This document shows positions 23,942-45,662 of a DNA stretch of 64,000 nt, piece by piece. The position numbers and the translations under genes are program-made. The notes below the pieces were generated by a model. That model worked only from the letters and a program-made list of their open reading frames with translations. It did no database searches and was not told where the DNA came from. The stretch's first letter is position 1, and the number at the start of each line of letters is the position of its first letter. This DNA comes from Pantoea vagans (lineage in GTDB: Bacteria; Pseudomonadota; Gammaproteobacteria; Enterobacterales; Enterobacteriaceae), in contig NZ_CP011427.1 in the NCBI RefSeq assembly GCF_001506165.1, forward strand, positions 3,720,001-3,784,000. The letters run 5' to 3'.

Positions 23942-24352
23942 TTATTCGCGCTTTAAGCGATTGCTGTTCGCCAGCCACAACGTGATCACCAGAATCAGAA
24001 TCGCCGCCGAATAATAGAGCGTATCGAACGGATTTTTATGGTCAACGATGATCAGGCGGATAATCGCGGTGATACCGATATAAATAAAATAACGCAGCGG
24101 GAAGTGATAGCCCGACTGAAAATACTTCACGATCAGCGCGATAAATTCGAAATAGAGAAAGTAGATGACGATCCCTTCAATCAGCAGGTAAGAAGAGGCC
24201 TGCTCACCGGTGCTGAACAGTACCGTGGCTAAATGAATCGTCTCTTTCCCCAAAAACACCACGAGGATGATGGCCAGAATCACCAGGCCAATATTCAGAA
24301 CCCACTGCAATACCGAAGCAATAAGCTGCCCCGGTGCTGATTTTGTTGTCAT
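23942..24352 (-). CDS. psiE: Phosphate-starvation-inducible membrane protein PsiE
   Basis: A 136-residue inner-membrane protein, equal to E. coli PsiE, from ATG 24352 with AAGG eight bases upstream. There are four membrane segments ([71 protein letters not shown]). PsiE is induced by phosphate starvation in E. coli; its function is unknown. A perfect CRP site lies about 50-65 bases upstream, agreeing with the reported cAMP-CRP control of psiE. No Pho box is obvious directly in front of it. Confidence 0.93.
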
Positions 24353-24400
24353 TTTTTGCGCCTTATCGTACGAGAACTCTCTGGCGCTATCATGCTGTAG

Positions 24401-24416
24401 TGTGATCGAAATCACA
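24401..24416. promoter_or_regulatory. CRP site upstream of psiE
   Basis: TGTGATCGAAATCACA is an exact TGTGA-N6-TCACA palindrome, between the UTRA-regulator stop and psiE. Confidence 0.85.
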
Positions 24417-24421
24417 ATATG

Positions 24422-25120
24422 CTACACATCAACATCCACACAGAGCGCGTCGTAGCGCCAGTACTCACAATCGCAATCGATCACCCTGCGCTGCCGATCG
24501 CGGTTGATGCGGGTGATCAGCAAACCTGGCGTCCCACTGGCCACATTCAGCGCGGGTGCGGCTCTTGCGGGTAGCGGTCCGGGAAGAATGGTGAAACGCG
24601 CGCCACCGTAACGAATGCCGTAACGCTGATCGTAAAGGTCTGTGAGGGAACGCGTGAGGTCTTCATCTAATAGACCGGGGAAAAATGCCGGGTTGAGGTA
24701 GTGCTCAACATACAACACCGCACGGCCATCAATGCGTCTCAAGCGGCGGATGCGGTAAACCTTGTCACCCTCCAGCAGATTTAAATGCCGCGCGATAGCC
24801 AGCTGTGCAGGCACTTCCCGCGCTTCAATCACTTCGGTGGTCGCCACCCGTCCCTGCTCAGCGGCCATCGCATGAAAATGGCTGTGATGAGCCGGGTTAT
24901 AGACCAGCCGCGGGGGCGCCAGAAACCAACCGCGACGCAGTTCGCGATAAATAATCCCCTGCACTTCCAGCAAGCCAAGCGCTTCACGCAGCGTAATGCG
25001 CGTGGTGGAGTAGTGTTCGCTCAGGTTCCGCTCTGCTGGCAGGCGTCCGCTGGCAAATTCACCGTTTTCAATGCGTTCGCACAATGCTGCGGCAATCACG
25101 TCCGCCGTTTTCGACGACAT
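24422..25120 (-). CDS. GntR-family (HutC/UTRA) regulator of the adjacent transport locus
   Basis: A 232-residue regulator: winged helix-turn-helix (residues 5-70, GRLPAERNLSEHYSTTRITLREALGLLE) and a UTRA ligand-binding domain (about 90-230, VIEAREVPAQLAIARHL; LYVEHYLNPAFFP). Phosphonate regulators such as PhnF and PhnR are of this type, but so are sugar and histidine regulators. It is divergent from the ABC/hydrolase operon at 25345. Its own promoter holds a palindrome AGTGCAGATATTGCACT right next to a three-repeat Pho box, indicating autorepression plus PhoB activation. The likely effector is the imported phosphorus compound; this is inference. Confidence 0.85.
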   Translation of the reverse strand: MSSKTADVIAAALCERIENGEFASGRLPAERNLSEHYSTTRITLREALGLLEVQGIIYRELRRGWFLAPPRLVYNPAHHSHFHAMAAEQGRVATTEVIEAREVPAQLAIARHLNLLEGDKVYRIRRLRRIDGRAVLYVEHYLNPAFFPGLLDEDLTRSLTDLYDQRYGIRYGGARFTILPGPLPARAAPALNVASGTPGLLITRINRDRQRRVIDCDCEYWRYDALCVDVDV

Positions 25121-25136
25121 TTTACAGCCTCTTATT

Positions 25137-25153
25137 AGTGCAATATCTGCACT
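25137..25153 (-). promoter_or_regulatory. Candidate autoregulatory operator of the UTRA regulator
   Basis: AGTGCAGATATTGCACT has perfect six-base arms around five bases. It overlaps the probable -10 (GATATT) and lies 16 bases upstream of the regulator start. Confidence 0.55.
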
Positions 25154-25182
25154 ATGACAGTTCGATGACTACAATATGACAA
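25154..25182 (-). promoter_or_regulatory. Three-repeat Pho box upstream of the UTRA regulator
   Basis: On the minus strand TTGTCAT, TAGTCAT and CTGTCAT are spaced by exactly four bases each (11-base period), matching the PhoB repeat CTGTCAT at 6, 5 and 7 of 7 positions. The last repeat is six bases ahead of the candidate -10. Confidence 0.75.
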
Positions 25183-25250
25183 GCATATCCCACGCTTTAG
25201 CGCGCCGTATCCGCATGTGGAGCTACGTGCCACACCACATTTCACCACCA

Positions 25251-25269
25251 TGGTCATAAAACCTTCATC
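25251..25269 (+). promoter_or_regulatory. Pho-box-like site upstream of the binding-protein gene
   Basis: TGGTCATAAAACCTTCATC matches 14 of 19 positions of the two-repeat PhoB consensus, with the seven-base repeats four bases apart. It is about 75 bases before the start codon. Confidence 0.5.
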
Positions 25270-25282
25270 TGATCGGGCTAAA

Positions 25283-25299
25283 TTGGCTCGGTTCTTGCT
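25283..25299 (+). promoter_or_regulatory. Sigma54-like -24/-12 element upstream of the binding-protein gene
   Basis: TTGGCTCGGTTCTTGCT has the invariant GG and GC exactly ten bases apart and differs from the sigma54 consensus at one conserved position. The distance to the start codon (45 bases) is suitable. No enhancer-binding protein gene is nearby, so it remains a candidate. Confidence 0.45.
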
Positions 25300-25344
25300 G
25301 GACTAGACCAAGACGTCCCACAACTTACACCCGGAGCCACTGAG

Positions 25345-26406
25345 ATGAAAGCGTTTATCTCCTCTGTAGTAGCCAGTGCCGTACTGCTTGCGCTGCCCGC
25401 CGCGCACGCCGCCGATAACGACCTTGCCGCGCTGGAAAAAGCCGCGCGTGCTGAAGGACAAGTCAATAGCGTGGGTATGCCAGATAGCTGGGCAAACTGG
25501 AAAGACACATGGAATGACATCAGCAGCAAATATGGCCTGAAGCACAGCGACACTGATATGTCGTCTGCGCAGGAGTTGGCGAAATTTGATGCAGAGAAAG
25601 AGAACGCCAGCGCCGATATCGGTGATGTGGGCGCGGCCTTTGGCCCTATCGCGGTCACCAAAGGTTTGGCACAGCCTTATAAACCTACGCACTGGGATCA
25701 GATCCCGAGCTGGGCGAAAGACAGCGAAGGCAACTGGATGCTGGCTTACACCGGCACCATCGCTTTCCTGATCGACAAGCAGCAGGTGAAAGATGCACCG
25801 CACAGCTGGGCCGATCTGAAGAAAGGTAAGTATGTGGTTACTATCGGTGACGTCGGCGTGGCTGCTCAGGCGGCTAACGGCGTACTGGCCGCTAACTATG
25901 CGATGGGCGGTGATGAGAAGAACCTGAAACCGGCGCTGAATTTCTTCGGTGAGCTGGCAAAAGAAGGCCGTTTGGGCGTGACCGATCCGGTGATTGCCAA
26001 CATTGAGAAAGGCGAGATTCAGGTTGCCGTGGTATGGGACTTTAACGGTCTGAACTACCGCGATCAGATTGACAAAAATCGCTACGAAGTGGTGATCCCA
26101 TCTGATGGTTCGGTGATTTCCGGCTATACCACCATCATCAACAAATACGCCAAACACCCGAACGCCGCCAAGCTGACGCGTGAATATATCCTGTCCGATG
26201 AAGGTCAGATTAACCTGGCAAAAGGCTATGCACGTCCGATTCGTGCCGAGCATTTAACCCTGCCAGCCGATGTGCAGGCCAAACTGCTGCCGCAGTCTGA
26301 GTATAAAAATGCCCGTCCGATCAAAGACCAGGCTGCATGGGATAAGACCTCCAAAATGCTGCCGCGTCTGTGGCAAGAGAACGTCATCATTAATATGAAG
26401 CAGTAA
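25345..26406 (+). CDS. ABC importer periplasmic binding protein, putative organophosphorus or phosphonate ligand
   Basis: A 353-residue protein with a Sec signal peptide (cleavage after AAHA, near residue 22) and the two-lobe type II fold of the Fe3+/putrescine/2-aminoethylphosphonate binding proteins (FLIDKQQV, WDFNGLNYRD, SGYTTIINKYAKHPNAAKL). It is the first gene of a five-gene operon with two permeases and an ATPase. The ligand is not identifiable from motifs; Pho-box signals and the hydrolase next door favour a phosphorus compound. ATG 25345 follows CGGAG. A palindromic repeat fills the 110-base gap before the next gene and may stabilise this part of the mRNA. Confidence 0.82.
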   Translation: MKAFISSVVASAVLLALPAAHAADNDLAALEKAARAEGQVNSVGMPDSWANWKDTWNDISSKYGLKHSDTDMSSAQELAKFDAEKENASADIGDVGAAFGPIAVTKGLAQPYKPTHWDQIPSWAKDSEGNWMLAYTGTIAFLIDKQQVKDAPHSWADLKKGKYVVTIGDVGVAAQAANGVLAANYAMGGDEKNLKPALNFFGELAKEGRLGVTDPVIANIEKGEIQVAVVWDFNGLNYRDQIDKNRYEVVIPSDGSVISGYTTIINKYAKHPNAAKLTREYILSDEGQINLAKGYARPIRAEHLTLPADVQAKLLPQSEYKNARPIKDQAAWDKTSKMLPRLWQENVIINMKQ

Positions 26407-26418
26407 TTTTGCACACGC

Positions 26419-26479
26419 CGTAGCGGCGCGATTTATCGCGCATATCGTTAATCAATGCGCAATGAATTGCGCCGCTACG
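26419..26479. repeat. Interspersed palindrome family B, copy 1
   Basis: Outer arms GTAGCGGCG and CGCCGCTAC enclose two hairpins, GCGCGATTTATCGCGC and GCGCAATGAATTGCGC, a three-way-junction shape. It lies inside the operon between the binding-protein and hydrolase genes. Further copies lie at 45812-45867 and 62531-62595. Confidence 0.85.
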
Positions 26480-26516
26480 CATAGTGCCGGCAATTTGAAT
26501 GATGTAAGGAACGGGA

Positions 26517-27326
26517 ATGAAAACAATCCTGGTGGTACTGGATGGGCTGAGCAATCAGGTGGCGCAGCATGCGATGGGCTATCTGTTCGCGGAATGCAAA
26601 CAGGGTAACGGCCAATATTACACCTTAACCTGCGAGCTGCCTTCGCTGTCGCGCCCGCTGTATGAATGCATACTTACCGGGATTCCGCCGGTGCAGAGCG
26701 GGATTATTCATAACGGCGTTAACCGCTTAAGTAACCAGCGCAGCATCTTCCACTATGCACGTGCAGCCGGATTAACCACGGCCGCAGCGGCGTATCACTG
26801 GGTGAGTGAGCTTTACAATCAATCTCCGTTTAATGCCGCGCGCGATCGCCACACCCTCGCGCCTGAACTGCCGATTCAGTACGGCCATTTCTACTGGGAC
26901 GACGGTTATCCCGACTCCCACCTGTTTGAAGATGCCGAGAGTTTGCGTCTTAATCACGATCCCGACTTTTTACTGATTCACCCGATGAATATTGACGATG
27001 CCGGCCATAAGCACAGCCTGTCATCGCCGCAATATCGCAACCGCGCACGCATGGCTGATGGTTACTTATCGCAATGGATGCCGGGCTGGCTGGCTGCGGG
27101 CTATCAGGTGATTGTCACCGCCGATCACGGCATGAACGATGACCGATCGCATGGCGGGATTCTACCGGAAGAGACGCAGGTGCCGCTGTTTGTGTTCGGC
27201 GCAGGCTTCTCACGCCAGCCCGACCTTGAACCGCAGCAGACCGAATTGTGCGGTATCGTCTGCTCTTTGCTTGGCGTCCCACACGATAAACCGGTATGCC
27301 GTGGCCTGCTGGCGGAGCCGCAATAA
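26517..27326 (+). CDS. Compact alkaline-phosphatase-superfamily phosphohydrolase
   Basis: A 269-residue enzyme without a signal peptide, so cytoplasmic. Nucleotide-pyrophosphatase/phosphodiesterase-type motifs are visible: metal Asp9 (VVLDGLS), nucleophile Ser45 in LPSLSRPLYECILTG, metal residues in NIDDAGHKHS near 160 and TADHGMNDDRSHGG near 202-214. It is shorter than phosphonoacetate hydrolase or typical NPPs (about 400 residues) and so lacks some cap insertions. Embedded between binding protein and permeases, it probably cleaves the imported compound. The first permease starts within its stop codon (TAATG). The substrate could be a phosphodiester, phosphomonoester or phosphonate. Confidence 0.82.
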   Translation: MKTILVVLDGLSNQVAQHAMGYLFAECKQGNGQYYTLTCELPSLSRPLYECILTGIPPVQSGIIHNGVNRLSNQRSIFHYARAAGLTTAAAAYHWVSELYNQSPFNAARDRHTLAPELPIQYGHFYWDDGYPDSHLFEDAESLRLNHDPDFLLIHPMNIDDAGHKHSLSSPQYRNRARMADGYLSQWMPGWLAAGYQVIVTADHGMNDDRSHGGILPEETQVPLFVFGAGFSRQPDLEPQQTELCGIVCSLLGVPHDKPVCRGLLAEPQ

Positions 27327-28174
27327 TGAAGGGCAAAACCCTCGCCTCGCTGTTGCTCATCCCGTTCGCCATTTTCTGGGTCGCCTTCCAGCTCGCGCCG
27401 TTGTTATGGATTGCCATCAACAGCTTCTGGAGCGACATGAATGAGCGCTGGGGTATTGATAACTATAGCGATATCCTCACCTCGCCGTTTTATCTGCAGG
27501 CGTTTCGCCTGTCACTCGACATCTCCATATGGTCGAGCATTTACGGCCTGCTGATTTCACTGATTGCCGGGTATTCGCTGCATCAACTGGGCGAAGGCCG
27601 TTTTCAACGCTTCCTGACGTCATTCACCAACATGACCAGTAACTTCGCCGGCGTACCGCTGGCCTTTGCCTTCGTCATTTTGCTGGGGATAAACGGCTGC
27701 CTGACGCTGCTGCTGCGCCATTACGGCATGCTGGAGGGGTTTAAACTGTTTTCCCGTGACGGCATGGTGCTGGTGTATACCTGGTTCCAGATCCCACTCG
27801 GCATTCTGCTGCTCTATCCCGCTTTTGATGGATTGCGCAAAGACTGGGAAGAGTCGGCTGCGTTGCTCGGTGCCAGCCGCTGGCGCTACTGGTGGCATAT
27901 CGGTTTACCGATTCTGTTCCCGGCACTACTGGGTACTTTCGTCATTCTGCTGGCCAACGCGCTGGGTGCCTACGCCACCATTTATGCGTTGACCACCGGC
28001 AACTTTAACGTAGTACCGGTCCGTATTGCCGCGCTGGTGTCAGGTGATATCTCACTCGACCCAAATACCGGCGGGGCGCTGGCAATGCTACTGGTGCTGA
28101 TCATGGCGCTGATTACCGTGGTGCAGCAGTATCTGGTGCGCCGCAGTTATCTCAACGCGAAATCACAGGAGTAG
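27326..28174 (+). CDS. ABC importer permease 1
   Basis: A 282-residue inner-membrane protein from the ATG overlapping the hydrolase stop; an upstream in-frame ATG at 27296 would add ten residues. Six hydrophobic segments are seen, and the EAA loop that contacts the ATPase is EESAALLGASRWRYWWHIGLPIL near residue 185. It belongs to the BPD_transp_1 family and pairs with the second permease. It resembles permeases of spermidine/phosphonate-type systems. Confidence 0.86.
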   Translation: MKGKTLASLLLIPFAIFWVAFQLAPLLWIAINSFWSDMNERWGIDNYSDILTSPFYLQAFRLSLDISIWSSIYGLLISLIAGYSLHQLGEGRFQRFLTSFTNMTSNFAGVPLAFAFVILLGINGCLTLLLRHYGMLEGFKLFSRDGMVLVYTWFQIPLGILLLYPAFDGLRKDWEESAALLGASRWRYWWHIGLPILFPALLGTFVILLANALGAYATIYALTTGNFNVVPVRIAALVSGDISLDPNTGGALAMLLVLIMALITVVQQYLVRRSYLNAKSQE

Positions 28175-28177
28175 AAC

Positions 28178-28963
28178 GTGTCTCGCGCGGAAAAAATTTA
28201 CCATCGCCTGATTATCTGGCTACTGCTGATCATCCTGGCCGCGCCGCTGCTGGCGACGCTGCTGTATGGCATCTCCACGGACTGGAGCGACACCATTCTG
28301 CCGCAGGGCTTTACCCTGAAGTGGCTAACGGCGCTGTGGAGCGATCCCCGTTTCCTGACGGCACTCGGCCATTCGCTGCTGATTTGCTTCGGCGCTTTGC
28401 TGTTCTCCTTAGTGCTGGTGCTGCCTGCGATGTTTGTAATCGCTTACTATTATCCAAGACTGGATGCGGTGATGAACGTGCTGATTCTGATGCCGTTTGC
28501 CGTGCCGCCGGTGGTGTCGTCAGTAGGTTTACTGCAGCTTTATTCATCGTCGCCGTTAATGATCACTGGCACGCCGTGGATTCTGATTGGCTGCTACTTC
28601 ACCATTGCCCTGCCATTTATCTATCGCGCTATCGCCAACAACATGCAGGCCATCAACCTAAAAGAGCTGATTGATGCCTCACACCTGCTGGGTGCCAGCA
28701 CCTGGCAGGCCGCCCTGTTTGTGGTGCTGCCTAACCTGCGCAAAGGGGTGTTCATTGCCGTGTTGCTGTCGTTCTCTTTCCTGATAGGTGAGTTTGTATT
28801 CGCTAACCTGCTGGTCGGCACCCGCTATGAAACCTTGCAGGTTTATCTCTATAACATGCGCAATGGCAGCGGCCACTTCACCAGTGCCTTAGTGATCTCC
28901 TATTTTGCTGTCGTCCTGCTGGTCACCTGGCTGGCGAATGCCCTCAATCCTGAACGAGGCTGA
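28178..28963 (+). CDS. ABC importer permease 2
   Basis: A 261-residue membrane protein with a GTG start at 28178 preceded by AGGAG. About six hydrophobic segments are present and the EAA loop is LIDASHLLGASTWQAALFVVLP near residue 167. It forms the heterodimeric channel with permease 1. The gap to permease 1 is three bases and to the ATPase two, so translation is coupled. Confidence 0.86.
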   Translation: MSRAEKIYHRLIIWLLLIILAAPLLATLLYGISTDWSDTILPQGFTLKWLTALWSDPRFLTALGHSLLICFGALLFSLVLVLPAMFVIAYYYPRLDAVMNVLILMPFAVPPVVSSVGLLQLYSSSPLMITGTPWILIGCYFTIALPFIYRAIANNMQAINLKELIDASHLLGASTWQAALFVVLPNLRKGVFIAVLLSFSFLIGEFVFANLLVGTRYETLQVYLYNMRNGSGHFTSALVISYFAVVLLVTWLANALNPERG

Positions 28964-28965
28964 CC

Positions 28966-29958
28966 ATGAGTTATCTGAACGTCACCCAGCTGAACAAAAG
29001 CTACGGCCCTACCAGCATCTTTGAAAATATCGATTTCAGCGCCGAGGAAGGCGAGTTTGTGACCCTGCTCGGCCCCAGCGGCTGCGGCAAATCCACGTTG
29101 CTGCGCTGCATCGCCGGGTTAACCGATGTGGATAGCGGGAAAATTCTGTTACAGGGTCAGGATATCGTGCCGTTGCCGCCGCAGAAGCGCACCATCGGTA
29201 TGGTGTTCCAGAGCTACGCGCTGTTCCCCAATATGACAGTCGAGAAGAACGTGGCATTCGGCCTGAAAATGCAAAAGCTGGGCAGCAGCGATATCCAAAA
29301 GCGTGTGATGGAAGCGCTGGCGCTGGTGGAACTCACCGATTTCGCCCGCCGCTATCCCCATCAACTTTCCGGTGGTCAATGCCAGCGCGTGGCCCTTGCG
29401 CGTTCGCTGGTGACGCGCCCGCGCCTGCTGTTGCTGGACGAACCGCTTTCCGCCCTTGATGCCCGTATTCGCCGCCATCTGCGCGAACAGATTCGCCATA
29501 TTCAGCAGGAGCTGAAGCTCACCACCATTTTCGTCACCCACGATCAGGAAGAAGCGCTGACGCTGTCGGACCGTATCGTGTTGATGAACCGTGGCAAAAT
29601 CGTGCAAAACGGCAATGCTGAAGCGCTCTACACTCAGCCTGCCGACCTGTTTGCCGCCGGTTTTATTGGCAACTACAACCTGCTGAGTGCTGAACAGGCG
29701 ACACAACTCACCGGACAGACCTTTAGCGGCCAGGTGGCGATTCGCCCTGAATCGATCCGCTTGAGTGCACCGCAGGAGGGGATTCCAGCCACCATCATCA
29801 GCCACAGTCTGCTGGGTAACGTGATCCGCTATCGTGTTTTAGCGAACAATGTCGAGTTATCGGTCGATGTGCTGAACCGCAGCGTGGCAGATTTGCACCC
29901 TGCTGGCATGCAAATTGGTCTACAGTTAGAGATGTCGACGTTGCGCCAGGTCGCTTAA
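28966..29958 (+). CDS. ABC importer ATP-binding protein
   Basis: A 330-residue ATPase: Walker [10 protein letters not shown] near residue 36, Q-loop FQSYALFP, signature LSGGQCQRVALARSL near residue 136, Walker B LLLLDEPLSALD and the switch HDQEEAL. The C-terminal 90 residues are a TOBE-like regulatory region. Its class is that of PotA/PhnT/FbpC-like importers. It closes the operon; no U-tailed terminator is evident behind it. Confidence 0.88.
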   Translation: MSYLNVTQLNKSYGPTSIFENIDFSAEEGEFVTLLGPSGCGKSTLLRCIAGLTDVDSGKILLQGQDIVPLPPQKRTIGMVFQSYALFPNMTVEKNVAFGLKMQKLGSSDIQKRVMEALALVELTDFARRYPHQLSGGQCQRVALARSLVTRPRLLLLDEPLSALDARIRRHLREQIRHIQQELKLTTIFVTHDQEEALTLSDRIVLMNRGKIVQNGNAEALYTQPADLFAAGFIGNYNLLSAEQATQLTGQTFSGQVAIRPESIRLSAPQEGIPATIISHSLLGNVIRYRVLANNVELSVDVLNRSVADLHPAGMQIGLQLEMSTLRQVA

Positions 29959-30012: not shown

Positions 30013-30050
30013 ACCGTCAGGCGGCTAACCGCATGATTACAGCCTGACGG
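30013..30050 (+). repeat. Inverted repeat just upstream of yjbB
   Basis: CCGTCAGGC and GCCTGACGG are perfect nine-base arms 20 bases apart. The right arm ends three bases before the yjbB ribosome site. It might be a leader structure for yjbB or the end of the ABC operon. Confidence 0.55.
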
Positions 30051-30067: not shown

Positions 30068-31693
30068 GTGTTAACCCTACTCAATCTCTTGTCTGCTGTG
30101 GCCCTGCTGGTGTGGGGCACGCACATTGTGCGTACCGGCATCATGCGTGTTTACGGTGCCGATTTACGGCGCGTGCTCAGTCGCAGCGTGGAAAGGAAGC
30201 CGATGGCGTTCCTCGCGGGCATTGGCGTTACCGCGCTGGTACAAAGCAGTAACGCCACCACCTTACTCGTCACCTCGTTTGTGGCGCAGAATCTGGTGAG
30301 TCTCACCCCCGCGCTGGTGGTGGTGCTCGGCGCGGATGTTGGTACCGCCATTATGGCGCGCATACTGACCTTCGATCTCTCCTGGCTCTCCCCGCTGTTT
30401 ATCTTCTTTGGCGTGGTGTTTTTCCTCAGTCGTAAGCAGACGCGTGCCGGACAAATGGGCCGAGCAGCGATTGGCCTGGGGCTGATTTTGCTGGCGCTGC
30501 AACTGATTGTCGCCGCTGCCAAGCCCATTACCCAAGCGGCTGGCGTACAGGTGCTGTTCTCCACGCTGACCGGCGACATCATGCTGGATGCACTGATCGG
30601 TGCGGTGTTTGCCATCATCAGTTATTCCAGCCTCGCTGCAGTCCTGATTACCGCGACACTCACGGCGGCAGGCGTGATCTCTTTTAAAGTCGCACTCTGT
30701 CTGGTGATCGGGGCTAACCTCGGCAGCGGCTTACTGGCGATGATCAATGCCAGTGGCTCAAATGCCGCAGGCAAGCGTGTCGCGCTCGGCAGCCTACTGT
30801 TTAAGTTGATTGGCAGCCTGGCGATTCTGCCGTTGGTGAATTACGTTGCCGATGTGCTGGATAAACTGCCGGTGAACGATGAAGAGTTGGTGATCTTCTT
30901 CCACGTCTTCTACAACCTGATTCGCTGTCTGATGATGGTGCCCTTTGCCGAACCGATGGCGCGACTGTGCCGACGGATGATCGCAGACGACCCAGACAAT
31001 GAGACCCATTTAAAACCGAAACACCTCGACAGCAGCGCCCTGGATACCCCCGCGCTGGCGCTGGCTAATGCCTCACGCGAAACGCTGCGTATTGGTGATG
31101 TGGTGGAACAGATGATGGAATCGTTCAATAAGGTGGTACACGGCGAATTGCGTGAAGAGCGCGCCGTGCGGCGACTGGATGATGATGTCGATGTGCTGTA
31201 TACCGCGATCAAACTTTATCTGGCGCGCATGCCAAAAGAGGACCTCGCCGAGGAAGACTCCCGCCGCTGGGCAGAAATCATTGAGATGGCGTTAAACCTT
31301 GAACAGGCAGGCGATATCATTGAACGCATGTGTGCGGACGTGGCAGATAAATCTCTGCACGCCCGCCGCGCTTTCTCGACGGAAGGTCTGGAAGAGCTGA
31401 ACACTTTACAAGAGCAGGTGGTGAATAACCTTCGCCTCAGCTTGTCGGTATTTTTGTCCAAGGACATCACCAGCGCGAAGCGTCTGCGTCGCTCCAAGCA
31501 CCGTTTTCGCATTCTGATTCGCCGCTTCTCACATGCGCACGTTGAGCGCTTGCATCAACAGAACGTGCAGAGCATTGAAACCAGTTCGCTGCATCTGGGG
31601 TTATTAGGGGATATGAAGCGCCTGAATTCGCTGTTCTGCGCGGTGGCGTATACGGTGCTGGACCAGCCGGATGATGAGCGGGAAGAGGATTGA
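30068..31693 (+). CDS. yjbB: Na+/phosphate cotransporter-family protein YjbB
   Basis: A 541-residue protein with a GTG start at 30068 behind GAGGAG. The N-terminal two-thirds hold two PNaS repeats (VQSSNATTLLVTSF near residue 58; ISYSSLAAVLITATLTAAG near residue 183) and about nine membrane segments; the C-terminal 200 residues are a PhoU-like helical domain (VVEQMMESF to MKRLNSLFCAVAYTVL). In E. coli YjbB is associated with phosphate export. Here it follows the phosphorus-linked ABC operon on the same strand but is separated from it by 109 bases with an inverted repeat. Confidence 0.92.
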   Translation: MLTLLNLLSAVALLVWGTHIVRTGIMRVYGADLRRVLSRSVERKPMAFLAGIGVTALVQSSNATTLLVTSFVAQNLVSLTPALVVVLGADVGTAIMARILTFDLSWLSPLFIFFGVVFFLSRKQTRAGQMGRAAIGLGLILLALQLIVAAAKPITQAAGVQVLFSTLTGDIMLDALIGAVFAIISYSSLAAVLITATLTAAGVISFKVALCLVIGANLGSGLLAMINASGSNAAGKRVALGSLLFKLIGSLAILPLVNYVADVLDKLPVNDEELVIFFHVFYNLIRCLMMVPFAEPMARLCRRMIADDPDNETHLKPKHLDSSALDTPALALANASRETLRIGDVVEQMMESFNKVVHGELREERAVRRLDDDVDVLYTAIKLYLARMPKEDLAEEDSRRWAEIIEMALNLEQAGDIIERMCADVADKSLHARRAFSTEGLEELNTLQEQVVNNLRLSLSVFLSKDITSAKRLRRSKHRFRILIRRFSHAHVERLHQQNVQSIETSSLHLGLLGDMKRLNSLFCAVAYTVLDQPDDEREED

Positions 31694-40353: not shown

Positions 40354-40629
40354 ATGAAAAAATGGCTAATTGTGATTGCCGCGTTGCTGCCACTGAGTGG
40401 CATGGCGAATATGCTGAATAACACCAGCGAGCCCTACAAACCCGGCTACAACCCGAGCCAGCAACGGATGCAGACGCAAATGCAGGTCCAGCAGCAGCAA
40501 CAGCAGCAAAAATTGCGTCAGGATCAGCAACAGCAAAATCAGGAATTGCAGCGCAAAATGCAGGAACGGCGGGACAGTGCCCAGCAGCGCGTGATTCAGC
40601 AGCAGCCGGGCCAGCAGAGCGGGAATTAA
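40354..40629 (+). CDS. yhhA: Glutamine-rich periplasmic protein YhhA (DUF2756)
   Basis: A 91-residue protein with a signal peptide ([17 protein letters not shown]) and a mature part that is almost one-third glutamine ([20 protein letters not shown] in outline), likely helical or coiled. The function is unknown. ATG 40354 follows GGAGGA. It is between ggt and ugpQ as in E. coli, and its stop codon overlaps that of convergent ugpQ by two bases. Confidence 0.88.
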
Positions 40630-41369
40630 CGGAAGTCCGGGCCGATAATGTCGATGCGATCGGTGCAGATGGCGTCGACACCCCAGTTTAACAGCTCGCG
40701 CGCTCGCGCGGGCTGATTCACGGTGTACACCAGAATGTGTAATCCGGCGACTTTCAGCTGCGCGGTGCGCTCAGCATCCAACAATTTGTGATTCAGATGG
40801 ATGGAAACACAGCCCAGCGCCGACGTCAGCGTCAACCAGTCATCGTGCCATTCATCCAACAGCAATCCGCGAGGCAGTTCAGGTACCGCCTGCTTGGCCG
40901 CTTCCAGTGCGTCATAAGAGAAGGAAGACAACAGCGGTGCCGTTTGCCCCTGCCAGAGTTCGCGGGCAGCTAGCGCCACATCACGTCCGGTTTCCTGCTC
41001 TTTGCCCGTGGTGGGTTTGATCTCGATGTTCGCCATCATCTGATGCTGACGGCAGCGTTCCGCCACGTCACGCAACAGTGCCAGGGGTTCGCCCTCATAC
41101 TCGCGGCTGTACCAGCTCCCCGCATCGAGCTGCGACAACTTACTCCATGACAGATCGCCTGCTACTCCCCAGCCGTTGCTGGTGCGGTCCAGCGTGTCGT
41201 CATGCAGCAGGAATACCTGCTTATCCTCTGACAGCTTGGCATCAAACTCGATCATGGTATGACCGTACTGCGCGCCGACATCAATCGCCGCAAGGGTATT
41301 TTCCGGGGCCAGTTTACCGCCGCCGCGATGGGCGACAATCTGTGGGTAGGGCCAGTTTTCTGCACTCAT
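40626..41369 (-). CDS. ugpQ: Cytoplasmic glycerophosphodiester phosphodiesterase
   Basis: A 247-residue GDPD-fold enzyme, E. coli length, whose ATG overlaps the ugpC stop (ATGA). [18 protein letters not shown] and [24 protein letters not shown] carry the His, Glu and Asp active-site residues. It hydrolyses imported glycerophosphodiesters to glycerol-3-phosphate. It is the last gene of ugpBAECQ. Confidence 0.95.
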
Positions 41370-42439
41370 TCCAGACGCTTTCCATGGGTAGAATCGAAGA
41401 AGTGTAACGCATCTGGCGGCAGATGTAGCCACAAGGAGCTGCCCGATGCCGGACGCTCGCTGTGTGGCAAACGCACCACCAGTCGCGTATTGCCAATGCG
41501 ACCGTGTGCGAGGTTATCCGCACCTAACATCTCCAGTGTATCCACCACCAGCGGGATTCCCCCAGCGGCTTGCGAGCTGAGCACCAGATGTTCAGGACGA
41601 ATACCCAGCGTCAGCGGGCGGTTTGCCCATTTGGCTTTGCTTTCGCCCAGCGGCAAACTGTTGAGCGCATCCAGTGTAAAGCGGGTGCCATCACTGTTGA
41701 TCTGGCCTGGCAGCAGGTTCATCGCTGGCGCACCAATGAAGGAAGCGACAAACTGGCTGGCGGGGCGTTCATACACTTCTACTGGCGTGCCGACTTGCTC
41801 CACAACGCCTTTGTTCATCACCATGACGCGCTGTGCCAGCGTCATCGCTTCCACCTGATCGTGCGTCACGTAAAGGCTGGTGGTTTTCAGACGACGATGC
41901 AGCTGTTGCAGCTCAAGGCGCATTTGTACACGGAGGCGCGCATCAAGGTTCGACAGCGGTTCATCAAACAGGAATACCGCCGGTTCACGCACGATGGCGC
42001 GGCCCATCGCCACACGCTGACGCTGGCCACCAGAAAGCTCACGTGGACGACGCGCCAGCAGGTGATCCAGCTCCAGACTGCGTGCCGCTTCCATCACACG
42101 CTGATCAATTTGCTCTTTGCCCATGCCGCGAATTTTCAGGCCATACGCCATGTTTTCGCCCACCGTCATATGCGGATAGAGCGCGTAGTTCTGGAACACC
42201 ATGGCAATACCACGATCTTTCGGTTCCATGTTGGTCACGCGTTTGTCGTCGATATAGATATCGCCCGAGGTCACACGTTCCAGGCCTGCCACCATACGCA
42301 GCAGCGTTGATTTGCCGCAGCCGGAAGGGCCGACCATCACCATAAATTCGCCATCGTTGATGGTGATGTTGAGTGGCTGGATGATCTGATTTTTGCCGTC
42401 ATACGATTTGGTGACGGTCTGAAGGGTTACGCCTGCCAT
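41366..42439 (-). CDS. ugpC: Glycerol-3-phosphate importer ATPase
   Basis: A 357-residue ABC ATPase: Walker [10 protein letters not shown] near residue 37, [15 protein letters not shown] near residue 135, [21 protein letters not shown] and a C-terminal TOBE/regulatory domain. It drives UgpAE and belongs to the MalK-like group. The start follows directly after the ugpE stop (TAAATG). Confidence 0.96.
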
Positions 42440-43285
42440 TTATTTATCACTCTCCACCAGGCCACGTACAAAGGCACGTTGCATCACGAGTACCACCACC
42501 ACCGGTGGGATCAAGGTTAATAACATTGCCGCCATCACTTCATTCCACTGCGTAGGGCCGCCGCTGGTGTTGATCATACTTTTCACCCCGGCCACTGCGG
42601 TGCTGAGTGAAGGGTCGTTGATGATCAACAGCGGCCACAGATACTGGTTCCAGCCATAGATAAAGGTGATCACGAACAGGGCGGCGAGATTGGTTTTGGA
42701 CAGCGGTAACACGATGTCCCAGAAGAAACGCATCGGGCTGGCGCCATCAATACGTGCCGCCTCAATCAGTTCGTCCGGCAGTGACATAAAGAACTGGCGG
42801 AACAGGAAGGTGGCGGTGGCAGAGGCCATCAACGGCAGCGTTAAGCCACTGTAGCTGTCGAGCATGTGCAGGTTTGAAATCACTTCTACCGTGGGGAAGA
42901 TACGCACTTCAACCGGCAACATCAGCGTGATGAAAATCAACCAGAAGAACAGCGTGCGCAGCGGAAAGCGAAACCACACCAGCGCGAACGCGGAGAGCAT
43001 CGACACCGCAATTTTGCCCACGGTGATGCCAAGCGCCATGATCAGGCTGTTCATCATCATCATGCCAAATGCCGGACCACTGCCGTTAACCCCTTGAGTC
43101 CAGATGCGTGAGATGTTGTCCCACAGGTGCGTACCCGGCACCAGCGTCATCGGCACCTGATACACCGCTTCGTTATCCAGCGTTGCCGCCACAATCGCCA
43201 CGTACAGCGGGAAGAGAATGGTCAGCACGCCGAGCACCAGCAAGGTATGGCTGAAGATATCCAGCCCGCGTCGATTTTCAATCAT
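42440..43285 (-). CDS. ugpE: Glycerol-3-phosphate importer permease UgpE
   Basis: A 281-residue permease with six membrane segments and EAA loop [23 protein letters not shown] near residue 175. It pairs with UgpA. Its ATG overlaps the ugpA stop. Confidence 0.95.
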
Positions 43286-44169
43286 TGGTATTGCACCTTA
43301 CGCTCGACAAAGCGGAATTGCAGGATGGTCAGGCCAATCACCAGCAGCATCAGCACCACCGACTGGGCGGCAGAGGATGAGAGATCCAACCCGGTAAAGC
43401 CTTCACGGTAGATTTTGTAAATCAGCGTGGTGGTGGCCTGCACCGGACCACCGCCCGTGGCGGCATCGATCACCGGGAAGGTATCGAAGAAGGCATACAC
43501 CAGGTTAACCACCAGCAGGAAGAAACTCACTGGCGTAATCAGCGGCAGTGACAGGTTGAAGAAACGGCGCACCGGTCCGGCGCCGTCAATCGCCGCCGCT
43601 TCCACCAGCGATTTTGGAATCGACTGCAGCGCGGCGAAGAAGAACAGGAAGTTGTAGCTCATCTGCTGCCAGATAGAGGCCAACACGATCAGGAACATCG
43701 CCTGACCACTGTTTTGCGCGTAGTTCCAGTTGTAGCCAATCTGGTTCAACAGGTGGCTGAACAGGCCAAGGCCGGGATTGAACAGGAACATCCACAGTAC
43801 GGCCGCCACCACGGGCGCAACGGCGTAAGGCAGCAGCAATAAGGTTTGATACAGCTTTTTCAGACGCACCACGTAATCAACCAGCGCCGCCAGCAGCAGC
43901 GAGAAGGTCATGCCGCACACCGTGACCAGTGCGCTGAACTCAATGGTGGTCCAGAAAGAGTCGAGATAATAGCTGTCATTAAACAAGCGCTTGAAGTTGT
44001 CCAGACCGACAAAGGTGCTGGATATGCCAAAGGGATCGATGCTTTGCAACGAATACCACAGTGCTTCCCCGGCAGGCCACAGGAAGAAAATGGCGGTGAT
44101 CACCAGCTGCGGTGCGACCAGCAAATAGGGCAGAAAACGGGAGCGAAAAACGGGGCGTGATGAGGACAT
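43282..44169 (-). CDS. ugpA: Glycerol-3-phosphate importer permease UgpA
   Basis: A 295-residue permease with six membrane segments and EAA loop [24 protein letters not shown] near residue 195. It pairs with UgpE. A GC-rich stem-loop (44192-44218) lies between ugpB and this gene. Confidence 0.95.
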
Positions 44170-44191
44170 AACAGACTCGCCAAAGAGAAAT

Positions 44192-44218
44192 CGGGGCTGA
44201 CGCCACGCGCCAGCCCCG
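44192..44218 (-). repeat. Stem-loop between ugpB and ugpA
   Basis: CGGGGCTG and CAGCCCCG arms around 11 bases, directly after the ugpB stop, without a long U-tail. It may stabilise the ugpB mRNA or partly attenuate transcription into ugpA. Confidence 0.6.
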
Positions 44219-44229
44219 AGACAACGGAA

Positions 44230-45546
44230 TTACTTCACTTGCTGTTCAAAACGACGCAGCAGTTCATTTCCGCGCTTCACTGCGTTATCCAGTGCAGCTT
44301 GTGGTGCCTGTTTACCCGTCCACACGCCTTCCAGTTCCTCGTCCACGATGGTACGAATCTGTGGCATGTTGCCCAGACGCATGCCTTTGGTGAACGGCAG
44401 TGGATCTTTGTTCAGCATCTGACGCGTGGCAATGTCTGCACCTGGGTTCTTGTCGTAGAAGCCCTGCTGTTTGGTCAGCTCATACGCTGCAGTGGTGATC
44501 GGCAGATAACCGGTCTTTTGGTGCCATTCCGCTGCGATCTCTGGCTGTGCCAGGAACTTCATGAACTCTGCTACACCTTTGTAGGTGTTGGCATCTTTGC
44601 CTTTCATCACCCACAGGCTCGCGCCGCCGATAATGGCGTTCTGCGGTGCGTCTGGCACGGTTGAGTCGTATGGCATCATGCCTACGCCGAAGTTGAACTT
44701 GGCGTAGTGTTTGATATCCGCCAGAGAACCTGAAGAGGCGGTGGTGATACCGCAATCGCCGTTATAGAACTTGGCTGTAGACTCATCTTTACGGCCGAAG
44801 TAGGTGAAATCACCCTTCTTGTTCATGTCTTCAAGCATTTGGATGTGACGCACCTGCACCGGCTTGTTGAACTCCAGCACCGCATCGGTACCGTCGAAGC
44901 CGTTGTTCTTGGTGGCAACCGGCAGTGCATGCCAGGCGCTGAAGTTTTCGATTTGAATCCAGCCCTGCCAGCCACTGGCGTAGCCACAGGTCATGCCGGC
45001 TTTACGCAGGGCATCGGCATCTTTCGCCAGTTCCTGCCAGGTTTTCGGTGGCTGGTCTGGGTTCAGGCCTGCTTTCTTGAAGGCGTCTTTGTTGTAGTAC
45101 AGCACTGGGGTAGAGCTGTTAAAGGGCTGAGAGATCAACTGGCCTTTGCTGTCGCTGTAGTAACCCGCAACGGCTGGCACGAACTGTTTTGGATCCATCT
45201 GCACGCCCGCGTCTTTGAACACGTCATGCACCGGAACGATGGCTTTAGACGCCATCATGGTTGCCGTACCCACTTCGTAAACCTGCAGAATAGCCGGGGC
45301 TTTACCGGTACGCACAGCAGCGATACCCGCTGCCAGGCTCTGCTCATAGTTACCTTTGTAAGTCGGTACGATTTTGTATTCTGGGTGAGCCTGGTTAAAA
45401 CGTTGTGCCAGAGAATCGACTTCTTTGCCTAACTCGCCTTCCATTGAGTGCCAGAAAGGAATGTCTGTAGCAGCCAGCGCATTACCGCTGAGCGCCAGAC
45501 CGAGCAACACACTCATCAGGCGGGGACGAAGCGTAAAAGCGGACAT
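44230..45546 (-). CDS. ugpB: Glycerol-3-phosphate periplasmic binding protein
   Basis: A 438-residue binding protein, equal to E. coli UgpB, from ATG 45546 behind AGGA; the longer open frame starts in the promoter. A signal peptide ends at ALAAT. Mature residues [25 protein letters not shown] start a type I/II two-lobe fold. It binds glycerol-3-phosphate and glycerophosphodiesters. It heads ugpBAECQ behind four PhoB repeats. Confidence 0.96.
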
Positions 45547-45622
45547 AAGTTTTTTCCTGTGCTTGTTAGGTACGCGCGATATCACGCATTTTTTTGTTCG
45601 CGAAGTAACATGACACGAGGAA

Positions 45623-45662
45623 ATGACGGAAAAATAACAGGATTATGACGGGAATGTGACGA
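45623..45662 (-). promoter_or_regulatory. Four-repeat Pho box of the ugp operon
   Basis: On the minus strand TCGTCAC, CCGTCAT, CTGTTAT and CCGTCAT follow each other with four-base spacers (11-base period). The E. coli ugp operon is PhoB-controlled, which supports the assignment. Confidence 0.85.

Follow-up and report, generated by a model that had tools for sequence, protein, structure and literature searches.

A window of 64,000 nucleotides of the Pantoea vagans genome (contig NZ_CP011427.1, positions 3,720,001 to 3,784,000) was found to contain an operon encoding an ATP-binding cassette (ABC) importer together with a small hydrolase. The genes were called from the listing of open reading frames (ORFs) and from Pfam and NCBIfam profile searches of the window proteins. 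The operon, on the plus strand, contained the genes of a periplasmic substrate-binding protein of the SBP_bac_6 family (25345..26406; PF13343, 102.8 bits; signal sequence at the N-terminus by eye), a hydrolase of 269 residues (26517..27326; PF01663), two BPD_transp_1 permeases (27326..28174 and 28178..28963; both PF00528) and an ATPase with a TOBE_2 domain (28966..29958; PF08402). An alternative in-frame upstream start of the first permease, at 27296, is possible. Divergent from the operon, on the minus strand, was the gene of a PhnR-related GntR/HutC (UTRA) regulator (24422..25120; PF07702 and PF00392), the predicted repressor of the operon. The upstream flank was occupied by psiE, which encodes a phosphate-starvation-inducible membrane protein (23942..24415, minus strand; 244.1 bits with NF002764 against an equivalog-level cut-off of 207), and the downstream flank by a gene for a YjbB-like Na/Pi cotransporter in the same direction as the operon (30068..31693; TIGR00704, 388.4 against 210.1), a possible exit route for surplus phosphate. 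The gene order agreed with a first-pass annotation of the same DNA, which had named the regulator, binding protein, hydrolase, two permeases, ATPase and both flanking genes.

The hydrolase was found to be a minimal NPP-type member of the alkaline phosphatase (AlkP) superfamily, as it passed the Pfam cut-off of PF01663 and had the fold, the metal ligands and the nucleophile of that type. The D9, S45, N66, D160, H164, D203, H204 and H212 residues were invariant. In structure comparison the nearest folds were NPP/ENPP enzymes, including ENPP6 and ENPP7. The fold, metal ligands and nucleophile position were shared with Xac NPP and ENPP6/7, whereas the matched chains were at least 373 residues long and the nucleophile position of the window enzyme was occupied by Ser instead of Thr. 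No secretion signal was recognised in the hydrolase by eye, and from its sequence it is predicted to be a cytosolic phosphodiesterase. PIG-type ethanolamine-phosphate transferases, suggested by the ADHGM-HGG motif, were not among the structure matches listed.

The Pho boxes were scored with a consensus, a three-repeat site out of 21 positions and a two-repeat site out of 14. The upstream comparison covered 76 regions (75 fetched loci with the binding-protein gene, and the window) with 3800 shuffles as control; since these loci are related to one another, no p-value is attached. The three-repeat Pho box mentioned in the first-pass annotation was present as a Pho-box-like site (25154..25182) that matched the consensus at 18 of 21 positions, whereas no more than 17 was reached in 60 simulated windows. 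However, it lies on the minus strand and faces the regulator. A score of at least 16 was found in 18 of the 44 loci examined, and all of these were close relatives except L071, which is of Pseudomonas type. Because of this orientation, and of conservation mainly among close relatives, it was rejected as the operon promoter. The operon's own site was the two-repeat Pho-box-like TGGTCATAAAACCTTCAT at 25251..25268 on the plus strand. The window copy scored only 10 of 14 and is convincing because of its conservation at a fixed place; 47–49 bp 5' of the palindrome described below, a score of at least 10 was found in 70 of the 76 regions. The six with lower scores were L024, with a site of 11 at 5 bp distance, L037, L046, L047, L048 and L052. 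Anywhere within 150 bp, 75 of the 76 regions reached 10, against 190 of the 3800 shuffles. In having a Pho-box-like site upstream, the operon agrees with what is expected of a Pho regulon member. A presumed -10 element, TAAATT (25279..25284, plus strand), was assigned from its spacing, 10 bp past the Pho box; TAnATT was conserved in 15 of 16 rows of one alignment of these regions (A3), the exception being L043.

Between the -10 element and the binding-protein gene, a palindrome, TGGACTAGACCA (25299..25310, without strand), was found, which is the predicted operator of the UTRA regulator. One half-site of the window copy was imperfect. The palindrome scored 10 of 10 in 62 of the 76 regions (1 of 3800 shuffles) and 9 in another 11 (9 of 3800). 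Lower scores of 8, 7 and 7 were found only in L022, L040 and L044, which are exactly the three loci without the regulator gene. Their two-repeat Pho boxes were retained (12, 12 and 13 of 14, respectively). L014 was truncated by a contig end, with the start of the regulator gene still visible. The palindrome matches the HutC consensus GTMTAKAC given in excerpts from PMC4494728, and the locus combines a GntR helix-turn-helix, a UTRA domain and a palindrome of GT-N4-AC type beside a divergent gene, as in GntR/HutC repressors. Uniqueness in the genome was rejected as evidence, because the palindrome occurred once and its reversed control also once. A distinct inverted repeat, AGTGCA-N5-TGCACT, was observed at 25137..25153, close 5' of the regulator start, and its GTGC..GCAC halves recurred in the Erwinia, Dickeya and Tatumella rows of alignment A3.

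A search with the hydrolase confirmed 502 loci, and the best 80 of these were fetched and compared. The binding-protein gene adjoined the hydrolase gene, with the full gene set, in 75 of the best 80, which shows that this arrangement is not peculiar to the locus studied here. The operon was found in Pantoea, Erwinia, Dickeya, Serratia, Rahnella, Vibrio and Pseudomonas, and in Campylobacter by its binding protein. psiE was the flanking neighbour in Pantoea-type genomes, and metH in several others. The hydrolase was present in 48 of 60 genomes of the genus and rare in an even draw of 274 genomes of the class. Besides the genome of the window itself, the draw contained a single match at 59% identity and four at 30–33%, and 10 more genomes had weak matches to larger proteins. 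The binding protein was found at 62% identity or higher in 26 of 398 genomes of the phylum. A HAD-IB phosphatase gene followed the ATPase gene in 25 of the best 80 loci, within 116 bp in 24 of them, and the same arrangement was seen in each of the five fetched order-mates (L133-L137). The HAD-IB gene passed the TIGR01490 cut-off in five of five cases tested. The bearers were Rahnella, Ewingella, Rouxiella, Brenneria, Citrobacter JGM124, two unplaced Enterobacterales, Pseudomonas-type loci and one of five Serratia. Among the fetched loci, those of Pantoea, Erwinia, Dickeya, Tatumella and Mangrovibacter and the four remaining ones of Serratia gave no sign of the gene.

The description of the hydrolase as the importer's own goes too far, some Pantoea and Erwinia having the hydrolase without the importer and one lineage the importer with no such hydrolase found in its genome. 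In L029 and L050 the ORFs were read and the importer was gone, which led us to reject a transporter swap; in L031, L034 and L051 its absence beside the hydrolase was judged from the BLAST picture only. Among these five lone-hydrolase loci, L029, L031 and L034 kept a Pho-box-like site with the bases that follow it but had no palindrome, and L050 and L051 had neither. By eye, a stretch resembling the 3' end of the binding-protein gene was retained in L050 and L051. The cluster around a 59% homologue in L128, with a thiamine pyrophosphate enzyme, unplaced proteins and no importer, yielded no clue to the substrate. In L129 (3189-9221) and L132, an ABC importer operon of oligopeptide/nickel type was observed to end with a distant relative of the hydrolase.

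The closest solved binding protein was 5t1p of Campylobacter jejuni (E 1.2e-159; 229 of 331 residues identical, 69%), whose entry is titled putative solute-binding protein. The first-pass annotation had proposed to look for a characterised non-phosphorus binder above 60% identity, and none was found, 5t1p carrying only that title. In the tree, 5t1p fell inside the clade of the window protein (support 95/94), as expected of an orthologue. The sister clade had a support of 100/99, and a GpdQ-linked pair branched outside both (midpoint root). We take 5t1p to be Cj0727 of the Campylobacter jejuni operon cj0727-cj0733/0734, to which AlkP and HAD genes presumably belong as well. We likewise assume, in line with the synteny of L064, that PA3249-PA3254 is the copy of Pseudomonas aeruginosa. 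The C. jejuni Cj0727-type operon is likely the counterpart of the window operon, although it belongs to another phylum and has PhosSR as its regulators. According to excerpts from PMC1892558, which cites the work of Wosten in 2006 on C. jejuni PhosS/PhosR, Cj0728-Cj0734 are phosphate-regulated, and regulation of the likely counterpart has thus been in print since 2006-2007; cj0727-cj0732 were without an assigned function in 2020 according to PMC7176700. No substrate was assigned to this operon in the open-access literature searched, including the available portions of PMC8316502, PMC10574752, PMC9311074, PMC3197622, PMC4415409, PMC4899797, PMC8041468 and PMC11202532. No paper naming 5t1p was found in the open-access literature searched.

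Related importers were examined in two sets. The first set consisted of 19 loci with binding proteins about 33–42% identical to that of the window, and a glutamine synthetase-like (GS-like) gene was found nearby in 8 of them. The second set consisted of 42 sister loci, taken from all 12 genomes with matches among 120 of one family and from 30 of the 57 genomes with matches among 101 of another, and included L165 and L166, the loci that first raised the idea. The highest count in the second set was that of GS-like genes (18), followed by UgpQ-type GDPD, HAD-IB and YjbB homologues (3 each) and PHP-type and ethanolamine-permease-like genes (2 each). The GDPD of L165 passed the UgpQ model (393.9 against 264). 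The PHP protein of L170 was recognised by the CehA/McbA domain model only (86.5 against 80), and the pairing of PHP with the importer is weak because the Pfam PHP cut-off was missed. By eye, no C-P enzyme was recognised among the neighbours of the sister importers; a profile search aimed at such enzymes was not made. In L164 (2205-12134), and also in L163, L167 and others, a co-directional cluster of permease, GS-like, aldehyde dehydrogenase (ALDH), iron-dependent alcohol dehydrogenase (Fe-ADH) and SBP_bac_6 importer genes was observed, which might serve to gamma-glutamylate an amino alcohol after its import. L145 (7687-10208) contained a tandem pair of binding-protein genes (67% and 72% to the sister clade), followed by one permease/ATPase set.

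A paralogous SBP_bac_6 importer was also present in the same genome (L214; G000 C1:959289-964856). Like the window operon it includes a phosphodiesterase gene of its own, placed last in the cluster, whereas the enzyme is calcineurin-like, the regulator is of LacI type and the binding protein is only 32% identical. The best PDB matches of this enzyme were 2zo9, 2dxl and 3d03, which we take to be GpdQ. Of 148 genomes searched, five had a GpdQ-like gene, and in all five it lay beside an ABC-importer ATPase gene; two of these ATPase genes were on the opposite side, with products just 47–49% identical.

About 11 kb downstream of the importer operon, a complete ugpBAECQ operon, absent from the first-pass annotation, was found (40626..45585, minus strand; all five proteins pass curated cut-offs), with a three-repeat Pho-box-like site at 45623..45651 (18 of 21). 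The 64 kb hold two Pho-linked importers with a cytosolic phosphodiesterase, a predicted one in the SBP_bac_6 case, encoded in the operon. The two differ in their protein families, UgpB being of another binding-protein family and UgpQ of the GDPD family, whereas the window operon combines SBP_bac_6 with the NPP fold and its partner hydrolase belongs to PF01663. UgpQ was the sole PF03009 (GDPD-family) match in the genome. Between 22000 and 34000 of the window, Rfam at gathering thresholds gave no match. A perfect 9-bp inverted repeat, CCGTCAGGC/GCCTGACGG, was observed at 30014-30050 in the gap between the ATPase gene and yjbB, without a T run. Of five relatives checked, one (L008) had both halves at a short distance from each other.

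The first-pass annotation had proposed a Pho-linked import and hydrolysis of an organophosphorus compound, perhaps a phosphodiester or a phosphonate. Our comparison supports this as likely, the Pho link through the promoter, with a phosphodiester more probable than a phosphonate. We give roughly an even chance to the reading that importer and hydrolase form one phosphate-starvation system for a small phosphodiester that is cut in the cytosol and whose head group is likely an amino alcohol (ethanolamine- or choline-like). The main argument is one of guilt by association, since several unrelated diesterases occur beside related importers, which points to a diester substrate; in the same manner, the amine and alcohol genes near the sister importers suggest the head group. 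At low phosphate, PhoB would activate the operon promoter, and the UTRA regulator would occupy the palindrome until released by substrate or product. The ABC importer would bring the small phosphodiester into the cell, where the hydrolase would cleave it using Ser45 and two metals and free usable phosphorus. In many relatives the HAD-IB phosphatase, the seventh gene of the cluster, would complete the degradation, and YjbB may release surplus phosphate. We give slightly less than an even chance to a broader proposal, that SBP_bac_6 importers have repeatedly gained a cytosolic phosphodiesterase of their own, of unrelated folds (NPP, GDPD, GpdQ, PHP), with a HAD phosphatase and the YjbB exporter as extra modules; the window enzyme would then be a minimal cytosolic NPP, and the substrate a common head-group diester, nowhere assigned in the Campylobacter, Vibrio, Pseudomonas or Pantoea relatives.

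Several observations weigh against the phosphodiester system. The genome G583 has the importer and the HAD gene with zero hydrolase matches, where a strict diester model predicts otherwise. Some Pantoea and Erwinia, as described above, have retained the hydrolase and lost the importer, and in G439 the hydrolase is accompanied, at E 1e-20, by only a 32% relative of the binding protein. Enzyme and importer are thus separable partners (G583, G439), which speaks against a tight machine for one substrate. At only about 33–42% identity, the sister importers may serve other substrates. In 12 of the 42 sister loci not one of the sought enzymes was seen, and L220 had just a weak ALDH. The tested GS-like, ALDH, Fe-ADH and permease genes remained under every curated cut-off (the nearest being the ethanolamine permease of L146, 367.3 against 381.75), so that both the pathway and the words 'amino alcohol' are our inference. 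With ugpBAECQ complete in the window, glycerophosphodiesters are already served; a second such system is possible and not needed, for which reason we give the phosphodiester class about an even chance and each individual compound a smaller one. The 4r6y fold match of the binding protein was tied with citrate-binding MctA (29.7), followed by hexose-phosphate-binding AfuA (28.4). Ligand, activity and expression data for the importer clade were not found in the open-access literature searched. R109 of the hydrolase, conserved in at least 90%, is placed by its spacing, as we assume, at the phosphate-binding Lys/Arg of PafA/PhnA, which fits a monoester or a phosphonate substrate.

A monoester system would be an AfuA-like phosphomonoester importer in which the NPP-fold hydrolase and the HAD-IB enzyme act as alternative or successive phosphomonoesterases. 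We consider it unlikely, as the nearest folds of the hydrolase are those of NPP/ENPP enzymes and related importers adjoin GDPD- and GpdQ-type diesterases. A little less improbable, though still doubtful, is a special case of the phosphodiester system, in which the operon is a plain Ugp duplicate for glycerophosphoethanolamine or -choline, NPP replacing UgpQ. The UgpQ-type GDPD genes that adjoin some sister importers and the ENPP6 and ENPP7 folds are in its favour, whereas Ugp itself lies nearby with its own three-repeat Pho box. A scavenger of nucleotides or cyclic nucleotides, suggested by the NPP fold because NPPs are nucleotide-active, appears very improbable. The nearest solved fold matches of the binding protein are binders of small anions, metals, sugar phosphates, opines and amines, with no named nucleotide binder among the 50 listed, and nucleoside-related neighbours were noticed near one sister locus only (L166).

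A phosphonate system, in which the hydrolase would break a C-P bond, PhnA-like, in a compound related to 2-aminoethylphosphonate (2-AEP), is favoured by the relatives of the regulator and the ATPase, by the 4r6y match and by PhnA being a sequence relative of the hydrolase. The operon resembles PhnSTUV-PhnR-PhnWX of Salmonella, which serves 2-AEP, in its transporter superfamily, UTRA regulator and Pho control. However, it includes the PF01663 hydrolase and missed every curated Phn cut-off tested, and assignment to PhnSTUV or PhnA was rejected, in line with the first-pass annotation, which had set the locus apart from them. The binding protein scored 40.0 against 395.3 with PhnS and 55.4 against 310 with PRK15046; the ATPase scored 303.4 against 499.15 with PhnT and 385.4 against 457.7 with PhnT2 (TIGR03265), its nearest model; and the second permease scored 87.8 against 358.7 with PhnV (TIGR03255), its best curated relative. 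The regulator, nearest to PhnR, reached 257.5 bits with TIGR03337 against a cut-off of 296.75, and PhnA was missed widely by the hydrolase (TIGR02335, 22.6 against 407.55). A PhnR-like regulator also predicts little and need not mean phosphonates, because in Salmonella a regulator with 45.1% identity to PhnR sits among fructose-asparagine genes, according to excerpts from PMC5351497. With these misses, and with no C-P enzyme seen by eye beside the sister importers, we regard the phosphonate system as distinctly unlikely, below the phosphomonoester importer.

The window operon represents a phosphorus-scavenging operon shared among these bacteria, for which a substrate assignment was not found in the literature searched, and the comparison yields a short list of candidates with head-group phosphodiesters first. 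A concrete operator and promoter are defined, and the enzyme and the binding protein are of small size. If the phosphodiester system is true, the operon would give plant-associated, marine and gut bacteria a further route to organic phosphorus, alongside Ugp and C-P lyase.

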